Of a DNA stretch of 64,000 nt, positions 9,592 to 60,673 are shown piece after piece (position 1 is the stretch's first letter; every line of letters starts with the position of its first letter). The position numbers and the translations under genes were made by a program. The notes below the pieces were generated by a model, which searched no databases, was not told where the DNA came from, and saw nothing but the letters and a program-made list of their open reading frames with translations. The stretch is from positions 1 through 64,000 of the forward strand of contig NZ_FQWX01000012.1 in assembly GCF_900129815.1 (NCBI RefSeq), written 5' to 3'. Origin of the DNA: Asaccharospora irregularis DSM 2635 (GTDB lineage Bacteria > Bacillota > Clostridia > Peptostreptococcales > Peptostreptococcaceae).

Positions 9592-9621
9592 AAAAAAGCC
9601 ACATAATTTTACATATGTGGC
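9592..9621 (-). terminator. second leader terminator of the ABC operon
   Basis: On the minus strand GCCACAT (from 9621) pairs with ATGTGGC and runs into TTTTTT (to 9592). The stem reuses the GCCACAT/ATGTGGC sequence of the terminator just upstream, so the leader carries two near-identical terminators in series before the permease start at 9540. Confidence 0.8.
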
Positions 9622-9627
9622 AACGCG

Positions 9628-9660
9628 AAAAAGCCACATAATCAAAATCCATGTGGCTTT
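9628..9660 (-). terminator. attenuator terminator (strands 3:4) of the ABC operon leader
   Basis: Minus-strand AAAGCCACAT (9660-9651, strand 3) pairs with ATGTGGCTTT (strand 4) and is followed by a T run ending at 9628. Strand 3 can instead pair with upstream TGTTGGCT (strand 2, 9692-9703), giving a classical antiterminator choice. Confidence 0.85.
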
Positions 9661-9691
9661 TATATATTTTAATGAAAAATTTATATAAACA

Positions 9692-9786
9692 ATATAGCCA
9701 ACACAGATACAACCCTAAATTTAAAATCCTAAGGGGTTTGCATCTATGCTAGAACATACCTGCAAACCCTAACAATAGTGGCTATA
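9692..9786 (-). promoter_or_regulatory. leader-peptide attenuator: strands 1 and 2 and enclosed hairpin
   Basis: Within the leader transcript ATAGCCA, which lies inside the Tyr codons of the leader peptide (strand 1, 9778-9786), can pair with TGGCTAT (strand 2, 9692-9703). The pairing encloses a 9-bp hairpin GGGTTTGCA/TGCAAACCC (9769-9734) that starts at the peptide's stop codon. If ribosomes stall on Tyr codons, strand 1 is covered, strand 2 is free to pair with strand 3, and the 9628-9660 terminator cannot form. The arrangement is seen in the sequence; the mechanism is inferred from enteric trp/his/phe attenuation. Confidence 0.75.
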
Positions 9787-9822
9787 ATAATAGTATTTTT
9801 TATTGTTTAATAAAGTTTCCAT
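9769..9822 (-). CDS. Tyr-rich leader peptide, 17 aa
   Basis: A short gene too small for ordinary ORF callers: ATG at 9822, SD AAGGAGAT at 9830-9837 (7 nt away), stop TAG at 9769-9771. It encodes METLLNNKKYYYYSHYC, with four consecutive Tyr codons and a fifth shortly after, right where the first attenuator strand lies. It starts about 80 nt after the predicted transcription start and about 280 nt before the permease gene. By analogy with known leader peptides it would sense charged tRNA-Tyr. Confidence 0.78.
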   Translation of the reverse strand: METLLNNKKYYYYSHYC

Positions 9823-9906
9823 AGTTAATATCTCCTTATTTTAGTATAGTTTAAAATATTTTATTAGAAAAATTAGAAAAAACATTTTTTTCTTAATTTA
9901 ATAAAA

Positions 9907-9935
9907 ATTATAGTTTATATTTTTAGAAAAGTCAA
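9907..9935 (-). promoter_or_regulatory. SigA-type promoter of the ABC operon
   Basis: On the minus strand TTGACT (9935-9930), a 17-nt spacer and TATAAT (9912-9907). Transcription should begin near 9900, giving a leader of about 360 nt that contains the peptide and the terminators. Confidence 0.88.
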
Positions 9936-10294: not shown

Positions 10295-10738
10295 ATGAGC
10301 ATGAAGTTAGTATGGCTTATAATAGCTATTGTATTTGGCGTAGGAGAGTTATTAACTCCGAGCTTAACTTTAATCTGGTTTAGCATTGGAGCCTTTATAT
10401 CTATATTTTTAAGTAGCTTTATAGATAATATAGTTTACCAAATTGTTATATTTGGAATAATTTCAGTAATACCTCTTGTGATAGTCACTAAGAAAATGGT
10501 AAAAAAAGATGCAAGTTATAAGTATAACACTAATTTACAAGGAATTATATCTAAACCAGGGATTGTAAAGATAGAAATCCTTCCTAACAAACCAGGTATA
10601 GTACTTGTAGGTAGTGAAGAATGGACAGCTATATCTGTAGACAACGAAAAAATAGAAGCGGGGTCTACTGTTGAAATAGTTAAAATTGAGGGTGTAAAGT
10701 TAGTTGTAAAATCAAAAAAATATGCAACTAATAAATAA
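10295..10738 (+). CDS. NfeD-family membrane protein
   Basis: 147 aa. Three hydrophobic segments lie within residues 1-70 (MKLVWLIIAIVFGVGELLTPSLTLIWFSIGAFISIF...), followed by a soluble OB-like C-terminal domain (GIISKPGIVKIEILPNKPGIVLVGSEEWTAIS..IEAGSTVEIVKIEGVKLVVK), the short-NfeD layout. SD GGGGTGA precedes ATG 10295. Short NfeD proteins typically occur beside a stomatin/SPFH gene and are thought to act together with it in membrane organisation. The SPFH gene starts 14 nt downstream. Confidence 0.9.
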   Translation: MSMKLVWLIIAIVFGVGELLTPSLTLIWFSIGAFISIFLSSFIDNIVYQIVIFGIISVIPLVIVTKKMVKKDASYKYNTNLQGIISKPGIVKIEILPNKPGIVLVGSEEWTAISVDNEKIEAGSTVEIVKIEGVKLVVKSKKYATNK

Positions 10739-10752
10739 GAGGAGGTACTTTT

Positions 10753-11763
10753 ATGAAAATTATTGAATACCTATTACCTATAGTATTGATAGTTATTGCG
10801 GTTGCAATAGCTGTATCTTGTGTAAGGGTAATAAAGCAATCCAAGGTTGGTATAATTATGAGACTTGGGAAATTTAAAAAGACAGCTGATACAGGGATAC
10901 ACTTTTTAGTACCATTTATAGACACTATGGCATATGTAATTGACTTGAGGGAAATAGTAATAGATTTTCCGCCTCAACCAGTTATAACAAAGGATAACGT
11001 AACTATGCAAATAGATACAGTTGTATATTACCAAGTTACAGATCCTACTAGATATGTATTTGAAATAGCAAATCCTATTTCAGCAATTGAAAACCTAACA
11101 GCTACAACTTTGAGAAATATAATTGGTGAATTGGACTTAGATGAAACTTTAACATCTAGAGATATTATAAATGCTAAGATGAGGTTAATCTTAGATGAAG
11201 CGACTGATAAGTGGGGAATAAAAGTCAATAGAGTTGAGCTGAAGAACATAATGCCACCTCATGATATTCAAGTTGCTATGGAAAAACAGATGAGAGCAGA
11301 AAGAGAAAGAAGAGAATCTATATTACAAGCAGAAGGAAATAAATCAGCGGCTATACTTCAAGCAGAAGGTGAAAAACAAGCAGCTATACTAAGAGCTGAG
11401 GCTAAAAAAGAGTCTATGGTTCGTGAAGCAGAAGGTGAAAAAGAATCTGCTGTATTAAAAGCCCAAGGGGAAGCAGAAGCAATAAGAGAGTTAGCTATAG
11501 CAAAAGGCAAAGGAGATGCAGAAATCATACTTAGAACTCAAGAAGCGAAGGCAGAAGGTATGAAGGCTGTATTTACAGCTATAAAGGAATCTAATATTGA
11601 TGATAATATGTTAGCCCTAAAATCTATGGAAGCTTTAGAAAAAGTTGCAGAAGGAAAATCAACTAAATTAGTATTGCCATCAGAAACAGTTAATTTCCTT
11701 GGATCATTTAAGGGAATAAAAGAAGTTTTAAATTATGAAAATAAAAAAGAAGATATTAAATAA
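10753..11763 (+). CDS. SPFH/band 7 (stomatin-like) membrane protein
   Basis: 336 aa. One N-terminal membrane anchor (IIEYLLPIVLIVIAVAIAVSC) is followed by the SPFH domain (QSKVGIIMRLGKFKKTADTGIHFLVPFIDTMAYVIDLRE..VTKDNVTMQIDTVVYYQVTDP) and a long Ala/Glu/Lys coiled coil (about residues 180-260; AEGEKQAAILRAEAKKES repeats), as in QmcA/stomatin proteins. Such proteins oligomerise at the membrane and scaffold proteases or other complexes. It follows the NfeD-like gene by 14 nt with SD AAGAGGAGG, a standard pair. Confidence 0.93.
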   Translation: MKIIEYLLPIVLIVIAVAIAVSCVRVIKQSKVGIIMRLGKFKKTADTGIHFLVPFIDTMAYVIDLREIVIDFPPQPVITKDNVTMQIDTVVYYQVTDPTRYVFEIANPISAIENLTATTLRNIIGELDLDETLTSRDIINAKMRLILDEATDKWGIKVNRVELKNIMPPHDIQVAMEKQMRAERERRESILQAEGNKSAAILQAEGEKQAAILRAEAKKESMVREAEGEKESAVLKAQGEAEAIRELAIAKGKGDAEIILRTQEAKAEGMKAVFTAIKESNIDDNMLALKSMEALEKVAEGKSTKLVLPSETVNFLGSFKGIKEVLNYENKKEDIK

Positions 11764-60381: not shown

Positions 60382-60640
60382 GAGCCTATCATCCCAAGGG
60401 ACGATAGACTCGTGGTGCCACCCAAATTTAAGAATAGCAAAATAAGCTATTCAACTTTAATAAGGTATCTCACAAATTAGTTTTAATACCCTTTTTCTAT
60501 AACGTGAAAAAAACGTCAACAGATACTAAGATAAAATCTTTTCACTGTGCTCCTCACAAACCCATTCACTAATATCGTATGTATTGGCTCTCACCAAGTG
60601 CCAACTCTCTGTACCATCGTTTTATTAGTTACTTACTTTT
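60382..60640 (-). promoter_or_regulatory. T-box leader of the trp operon (tRNA-Trp sensing)
   Basis: Minus-strand leader RNA with a stem I region (AGAGAG, GGTGAGAGCC), a specifier loop GTGAATGGGTTTG in which TGG (60564-60562) reads Trp, and the T-box TGGGTGGCACCACG (60424-60411) that pairs with the free NCCA end of uncharged tRNA. It ends in a terminator GAGTCTATCGTCCC/GGGATGATAGGCTC plus TTTTTT (60411-60382) that shares bases with the T-box. Uncharged tRNA-Trp should favour read-through into trpE. Confidence 0.92.
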
Positions 60641-60673
60641 GTTCTTAGGATTTTAAGTCTTAAATTATTAATA

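Follow-up and report, generated by a model that had tools for sequence, protein, structure and literature searches.

Attenuators of enteric trp, his and phe operons consist of a leader ORF with tandem regulatory codons and of mutually exclusive terminator and antiterminator structures. His-leader attenuators have been proposed for his operons of Peptostreptococcaceae, of Erysipelotrichales and of the B. cereus group (Ashniev et al. 2022, PMC9413887), and a His leader has been reported in bacilli (Naville and Gautheret 2010, PMC2965389). The accessible text of both papers, supplements aside, treats histidine genes and makes no mention of Tyr, Phe or Leu versions or of a shared scaffold. In 2021 the motif uORFC-13-1, found before aroF in Acholeplasma, was proposed as a uORF attenuator that has Phe codon(s) and a terminator (PMC8632094). 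For the RF04312 'trpB motif', over 900 examples have been reported from Firmicutes and Fusobacteria, most often before an amino-acid-type ABC transporter; its authors regard it as a strong candidate for a riboswitch and keep a classic attenuator as a possibility (Narunsky et al. 2024, PMC11109978). On the protein side, the Clostridioides difficile binding protein CD0873 was crystallised with tyrosine, which it binds with a KD of 94 uM; in its pocket Glu263 touches the hydroxyl group of the ligand, and Tyr279 keeps tryptophan out (PMC6816091). C. difficile that had lost two genes of the neighbouring transporter, equated with CD0876/CD0877 (PMC6816091), took up less tyrosine and phenylalanine (PMC5951980). 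The words 'leader' and 'attenuat' are absent from the accessible main text of these two papers.

We analysed a leader on the minus strand of a 64,000-nucleotide stretch of Asaccharospora irregularis DNA (the window). Like the enteric attenuators it has tandem regulatory codons and an exclusive terminator and antiterminator, and it belongs to the same mechanism class as the published His leaders of his operons. Unlike the enteric leaders, it has a pairing strand on the stop codon (M5), tandem terminators and, in its ABC subtype, a helix at the start codon (P0). It differs from uORFC-13-1, to which it is likened by description only, in lineage and gene. Judging from sequence, the locus is very likely a transcription attenuator in which the ribosome senses the charging of tRNA-Tyr and which controls a tyrosine importer. 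The elements, their conservation and covariation, the fit between codons and genes and the pocket residues were computed; from these we infer translation of the ORF, stalling, the order of folding and read-through. The kind of control would be leader-peptide attenuation, of which His examples had been proposed before. The Tyr version and the unification of the codon types appear to be new: the accessible open-licence literature, supplements aside, describes neither this Tyr leader, nor Phe and Leu versions of its scaffold, nor the unification.

Leader elements and the importer operon

Table 1. Features of the Tyr leader and of the operon behind it (window positions)
Feature	Position	Strand	Basis or remark
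SigA-like promoter, predicted	9935-9907	-	TTGACT 9935-9930, 17 nt spacer, TATAAT 9912-9907; 11/12 consensus matches
Shine-Dalgarno AAGGAG of leader ORF	9837-9832	-	sequence
Leader ORF METLLNNKKYYYYSHYC and stop, 17 codons	9822-9769	-	sequence; conserved in relatives
P0 outer helix, 5' strand	9822-9803	-	ORF codons 1-7; cognate versus swapped duplex test
Tyr codons, five in total	9795-9784 and 9777-9775	-	codons 10-13 (tandem) and codon 16
Strand 1a UAUAGCCA, 5' strand of P1	9786-9779	-	within codons Tyr13-Ser14-His15; covariation with S2 3' end
M5:M3 hairpin GGGTTTGCA...TGCAAACCC	9769-9734	-	sequence, covariation
M5, 5' hairpin arm	9769-9754	-	begins at last base of stop codon; M5:M3 covariation
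M3, partner of either M5 or S2	9750-9734	-	covariation with both
S2, 22 nt	9715-9694	-	alternative partners 1a, M3 or T5; covariation and duplex tests
P0 outer helix, 3' strand	9692-9672	-	duplex test
Terminator 1	9658-9627	-	T5 9658-9649, T3 9639-9632, T-run; read from sequence
Terminator 2	9621-9592	-	listed by terminator scan
ABC permease	9540-8644	-	PF02653
ABC ATPase	8666-7902	-	PF00005
Substrate-binding lipoprotein	7876-6875	-	PF04392; nearest solved structure CD0873

The leader occupies positions 9935-9592 of the minus strand (Table 1). An earlier note on this DNA had placed here a promoter, a strong Shine-Dalgarno (SD) sequence and a 17-residue ORF with five Tyr codons, followed by four pairing strands and a second terminator. 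All of these were recovered where it had put them: strand 1, ATAGCCA (9785-9779); strand 2, TGGCTAT (9700-9694), which is really longer, being part of the 22-nt S2; strand 3, AGCCACAT (9658-9651); strand 4, ATGTGGCT with its T-run (9639-9627); and terminator 2. SD, short ORF and regulatory codon run thus lie between a predicted promoter and the operon, as in a ribosome-mediated attenuator, although the promoter scan as a whole performed at chance level (36 sites versus 34.3 in shuffles). Because the terminator scan has a loop limit of 8 nt and the loop of terminator 1 is 11 nt, it lists terminator 2 alone. The nearest upstream ORF of at least 80 residues, at 10295, is divergent, and the terminators therefore most likely serve the Tyr leader. 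The divergent pair at 10295-11763 (plus strand) encodes an NfeD-domain protein (PF01957) and one neighbour, which we take to resemble an SPFH/stomatin protein.

Aligned leaders show five strands. Strand 1a (AUAGCCA) lies just 3' of the Tyr run, M5 (consensus GGGUUUGUA..CUA) starts at the stop codon, and M3 (consensus ACAUAGAUACAARCCC) can pair with either M5 or S2 (GGGAUUGUAUCUAUGUUGGCUA). The 3' end of S2 forms P1 with 1a, and the whole of S2 forms an antiterminator with the 5' arm of terminator 1 (T5, AGCCACAUAGAU). The earlier note had its pairings exclude one another exactly as in enteric attenuators. The exclusive strands do covary, but the layout is not exactly enteric, since resetting probably falls to a fifth strand, M5, placed at the stop codon; the M5:M3 stop-codon hairpin, the M3:S2 pairing and the P0 helix had been overlooked. 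We adopted the five-strand model because the enteric four-strand model alone leaves the conserved post-stop hairpin and the second partner of S2 unexplained.

The operon behind the leader probably encodes a tyrosine importer made of permease, ATPase and binding protein. Searched against solved structures, the binding protein scored 514 bits with CD0873 (6HNI), the next two hits reaching 209 and 199 bits, and it keeps Glu263 and Tyr279, the pair characteristic of CD0873-type tyrosine binding. The substrate guessed earlier from the leader codons, tyrosine or an aromatic relative, is in line with what crystallography and binding measurements showed for CD0873, the nearest homologue of solved structure. 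The accompanying label 'TrpXYZ-type' is apt for the family but not for the substrate, since the binding protein scored 311.5 bits with the TrpX model NF041285, below its curated cut-off of 390.

Permease homologues were present in 63 of 71 genomes of the family, close ones in fewer. The 22 named permease loci include C. difficile, Metaclostridioides, Peptacetobacter and Peptostreptococcus russellii as well as remote ones, and many of the homologues have leaders of the same plan. The leader peptides read MNTLLNNKKYYYYYSHYF in C. difficile (Tyr type), MITLLNKNRYYYYSQYL in Metaclostridioides, MKTLVNKQRRFYYSHY in Peptacetobacter and MKILLNNKNYYYYFGYYG in P. russellii; some homologous loci, such as L043-L050, have no such leader within 700 nt. 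Second copies are partly of a Phe type (MKTLLNKQVRFFSSQFS in C. difficile locus L052, MNTLINKQARFSFNSQF in Metaclostridioides); genus g22 has MNNLLNIKNSFFFNSQFR and variants of it. In a C. difficile-type genome (G009), a Tyr leader stands before the binding protein that matches CD0873 and a Phe leader before the neighbouring transporter, so that the CD0873 importer shares with the window the leader type in addition to being its nearest solved relative. In C. difficile strain 173070, a Phe leader on a draft contig (L052) is followed by a CD0873-type binding protein, and at L051 the other type of binding protein precedes the Tyr-leader permease; this is perhaps a crossed assembly of a repeated locus, or a real exchange. 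The host genome itself carries a second leader, of Phe type (MNTLINKQARFSFYSQFI), on contig 37 at 182237-182388 (L144:338-489); the gene behind it encodes a solitary binding protein that belongs to the same family and has Glu263 and Tyr279. A c-di-GMP-I riboswitch (52.8 bits) lies near that gene at L144:3117-3194 on the minus strand.

Binding proteins beside Tyr or Phe leaders have Glu or Asp at position 263 together with Tyr279. Codon and substrate are not strictly one-to-one, since Phe-leader operons retain the tyrosine pocket residues; a strict rule by which a Phe leader means a phenylalanine pocket was not borne out, Glu263 being retained. Leader codon identity fits the amino acid of the operon for the window pocket and, with such exceptions, for the family. 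By hand count, position 262 is occupied by Ser or Cys in 13 of the 15 proteins behind Phe leaders and in 5 of the 11 behind Tyr leaders, a trend left unused because it is too weak and the proteins too related.

Conserved pairings and the proposed switch

The leader RNA folds at -70.9 kcal/mol, compared with -47.3 (sd 4.45) for 200 dinucleotide shuffles, none of which was as good (z -5.3); in this minimum-energy fold terminators 1 and 2 pair with each other. Chance is excluded for the ORF by the conservation of its end at the same structural point. In a first set of 47 leaders, 46 have an ATG ORF whose end lies no more than 14 nt from where M5 begins, at an identical offset in 33; a strong SD was found in 44, a weak one in L154 and L157 among the 46, and the exception, L038, has an ORF that reads further. 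This set is partly circular, since 24 of its members seeded covariance model R1, which was built from importer leaders. The cleaner set consists of the 46 places that came from model R2, for which 36 diverse members were used; R2 starts in the codon run and excludes SD and start codon. An SD-ATG ORF ending at M5 was present at 34 of these 46 places and in 1.75% of 9200 shuffles; with a homotypic codon run required as well, the figures were 32 of 46 and 0.47% of 9200. In the first set 46 of 47 passed for SD, ATG and stop and 36 of 47 had the homotypic run, the shuffles of both sets giving 1.6-1.8% and 0.4-0.5%. Pooled, 80 of 93 members passed the strict test and 68 of 93 had a homotypic run (Tyr 35, His 17, Leu 4, Asn 4, Ser 3, Phe 3, Ile 2). 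The second set took the M5 position from a simple pattern, dropped L272 and retained the false L254, and some failures, such as L266 and L267, show visible codon runs.

Covariation was counted on alignment A5, 36 sequences aligned with MAFFT and unfitted to structure. These counts outweigh those on A4 (47 sequences), which agree with them, because A4 was fitted to a model containing P1 and M5:M3. On A5, paired cells amounted to 96.3% for P1, 88.9% for M5:M3 and 89.1% for M3:S2, with 23, 17 and 31 cells changed on both sides, respectively. For all three helices the covariation score exceeded that of all 500 shuffles and dropped sharply in slid registers; shuffle counts are not probabilities, as the sequences are related, and for P1 the observed number of doubly changed pairs was reached by 12 of the 500.

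Duplex tests on 28 representatives hand-picked from the 47 gave the same picture: cognate strands pair better than strands swapped between leaders. Cognate and swapped energies were -17.0 and -13.8 kcal/mol for M5:M3, -21.9 and -17.7 for M3:S2, -13.2 and -9.3 for 1a:S2, and -14.3 and -12.5 for S2:T5, with 0 of 5000 permutations matching in each case. S2:T5 was the weakest of these tests, its cognate partner ranking within the best 10% in 21% of cases, and used the wrong T5 piece for L028 and L034. A terminator-like hairpin follows S2 in 47 of 47 members. A mutually exclusive terminator and antiterminator, backed by covariation, is therefore present, and the conserved ORF, the covarying strands and the fit between codons and genes support the reading of the locus as a probable Tyr leader-peptide attenuator. 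Conservation of the codons and covariation of the strands were the checks that the earlier note had asked for; the ORF and its Tyr (or Phe) codons are kept in homologous leaders.

Conserved stretches of RNA could also betray an aptamer that binds tyrosine or a related ligand directly, as suggested for the trpB motif, with the ORF incidental. Several stretches are indeed conserved in sequence beyond pairing, and the leader overlaps RF04312, the published riboswitch candidate (PMC11109978). The conserved stretches are, however, M5, M3, S2 and T5, whose sequences are tied to one another by complementarity, and an ORF with a codon run is far commoner than in shuffles. A single pocket would moreover not explain one scaffold with fitting Tyr, Phe, His, Leu and Trp codons (see below). 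We regard direct ligand binding as very unlikely.

P0 is confined to the ABC/SBP subtype, where its first strand is formed by the first seven ORF codons and its second lies 3' of S2. Among 17 representatives of this subtype the cognate energy was -13.7 kcal/mol and the swapped energy -8.6 (0 of 5000 permutations); in 11 representatives of the BrnQ/His/SNF/NhaC subtype the duplex test found no P0 (z 0.4), which ruled it out as a general feature. P0 can explain the conserved LLNN of the peptide, and this bears on a TnaC-like arrest in which the nascent leader peptide, by its sequence rather than by tRNA charging, would sense free tyrosine. Conservation of the peptide outside the Tyr run (an MxTLLNN start and an SHY/SQF end) would suit such an arrest, but those parts are accounted for by the encoded helices P0 and P1 and are lost in other subtypes, where the codon run stays. 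We give nascent-peptide arrest as slim a chance as the aptamer.

Read as an attenuator of tRNA-Tyr charging, the leader would work as follows. With plentiful tyrosine the ribosome would reach the stop codon and cover M5, leaving M3 free for S2; 1a and P0 would also lock S2, terminator 1 would form, with terminator 2 as a backup, and transcription would end before the importer. With scarce tyrosine the ribosome would stall at the Tyr run, covering 1a and part of P0 and leaving M5 free. M5:M3 would then form and release S2, which would pair with the 5' arm of terminator 1, so that the importer would be transcribed.

We folded leaders at equilibrium, which says nothing of kinetics, cutting the RNA off after the 5' arm of terminator 1 and masking a stretch the size of a ribosome. 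For the window leader the calculation predicts 8.0 S2:T5 pairs with the ribosome at the Tyr codons, and 0.0 S2:T5 pairs and 17.1 S2:(1a+M3) pairs with the ribosome at the stop codon. The window leader switches in the model, but a gain of more than 2 S2:T5 pairs upon stalling was predicted in only 13 of the 28 representatives; 15 showed no such change, and none changed by that margin in the opposite direction. Stall codons were chosen automatically (LL in L024, L160 and L162, FLL in L058). M5:M3 can form before S2 exists, which may matter in the 15 non-switching representatives.

Codon types of the leader family

Model R1 found the second leader of the host and members before other types of genes. 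At an E-value of 0.01, R2 had matches in 71 of the 393 genomes sampled from the order and in 19 of the 391 sampled from the class, and the two samples overlap. Forty-seven of the further R2 places, not all, were fetched, and the best match per fetched locus was used; matches on the opposite strand arise from near-palindromic hairpins. Two weak matches, L254 and L272, look false.

The leader codons mostly fit the next gene, and Tyr and Phe runs stand before transporters. His runs precede hisZ-like genes (L245, MVRLNVEKLNIKLNHHHHHRLKGL), whose best model is TIGR00443 at a score below its cut-off, as well as hisS (L249 and L246, over the cut-off) and an amino acid substrate-binding protein (L228); the His leader of the hisZ-like gene, in genome G009, has the same scaffold as the Tyr leader. 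Tyr runs were found before SNF symporters (L155 by profile search, L255 by likeness), an NhaC-type antiporter (L154) and livcs/BrnQ-type carriers (L151 by profile search, others by likeness), and a Phe run, FFFSFF, before an SNF symporter (L262). Leu runs precede SNF-type symporters at L227 and L253 (profile search) and at L229, L265 and L270 (likeness), and predict leucine as the substrate of these five. Runs are weak or mixed in L160-L162, L240 and L258. BrnQ-type carriers stand behind Tyr- or Phe-rich leaders at L151, L156, L159, L163, L164, L165, L230 and L234. The carrier at L151 passes the branched-chain model livcs; the leaders suggest that these carriers move aromatic rather than branched-chain amino acids.

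T-boxes, which are known tRNA-sensing leaders, are common in this host, whose genome has 22 T-box matches, 21 of them over the cut-off; one is at 60394-60655 of the window (minus strand, 113.7 bits). Profile searches of the leader contradict a T-box here: at threshold, RF00230 matched neither the window leader nor any of 15 loci, the window's own among them, and T-boxes were absent among matches to the window leader up to an E-value of 10. No other Rfam family, known riboswitches included, reached threshold in the window leader or these 15 loci, so that the T-box or known aptamer that the earlier note had named as evidence against its reading did not appear. The proteobacterial amino acid leaders of Rfam were likewise absent among covariance model matches to the leaders. 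A T-box or other known tRNA-sensing leader is therefore close to inconceivable at this locus, and T-boxes and the Tyr-type attenuator coexist in the host.

Relation to the trpB motif and meaning

A permissive Rfam scan of the window leader gave one meaningful sub-threshold match, RF04312, at 39.1 bits (E-value 0.00025; gathering threshold 59). The two hairpins of RF04312 align with M3:S2 and terminator 1, and the window leader has the hairpin, intrinsic terminator and antiterminator within the right arm of the hairpin that mark this motif. In the alignment the RF04312 model begins downstream of the leader ORF, whose codons are Tyr in the window and Trp in RF04312. The only two RF04312 matches of the host genome at an E-value of 0.01 are the Tyr leader and its paralogue.

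Over-threshold RF04312 matches were rare in the samples, occurring in 0 of 60 and 1 of 299 genomes, but common in the family of that one genome, where 12 of 29 genomes had them. The Trp type was examined in this one family (29 genomes), which lies outside the class of the window. In all 14 over-threshold matches, an ORF lies just 5' of the hairpin and carries W-Q-x-W close to its end (for example MRQLSLTTNEQRQSWQSWRR), and the same holds for 21 of 23 matches at an E-value of 1e-4; of the other two, L304 shows these Trp codons but has its start beyond the range, and L305 lacks them. The sub-threshold matches L288, L289, L290 and L305 have no Trp leader. All 19 homologous binding proteins found in the Trp-leader loci carry Val263 and Gln279, and four further loci gave none; the tryptophan-bound structure 3LFT has Gln at 279 and Ala at 263. 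R2, built without Trp leaders, recovers the Trp leader weakly, its best consistent placement being L296 (E-value 0.0018). Common descent of the Tyr-type scaffold and the RF04312 Trp leaders is likely on these comparisons.

We think it likely, with somewhat less assurance than for the window leader itself, that an ancestral scaffold serves as a codon cassette in Clostridia and, within the same phylum, beyond the class, probably in Bacilli, as an alternative to T-boxes. The codon run (Tyr, Phe, His, Leu or Trp) and the complementary end of S2 would retarget it to importers, biosynthesis operons and tRNA synthetases, and RF04312 would be its Trp version and not a ligand-binding riboswitch. One scaffold would then cover four codon types within the class, in 71 of 393 sampled genomes of the order, plus the Trp type of RF04312, and a codon-reading scaffold offers a mechanism for that riboswitch candidate and its more than 900 reported examples. 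Leader codons would also predict transporter substrates, as for the branched-chain-type carriers behind Tyr leaders. For C. difficile, the two neighbouring leaders suggest that the uptake of tyrosine, which feeds p-cresol, is set by the charging of both tRNA-Tyr and tRNA-Phe.
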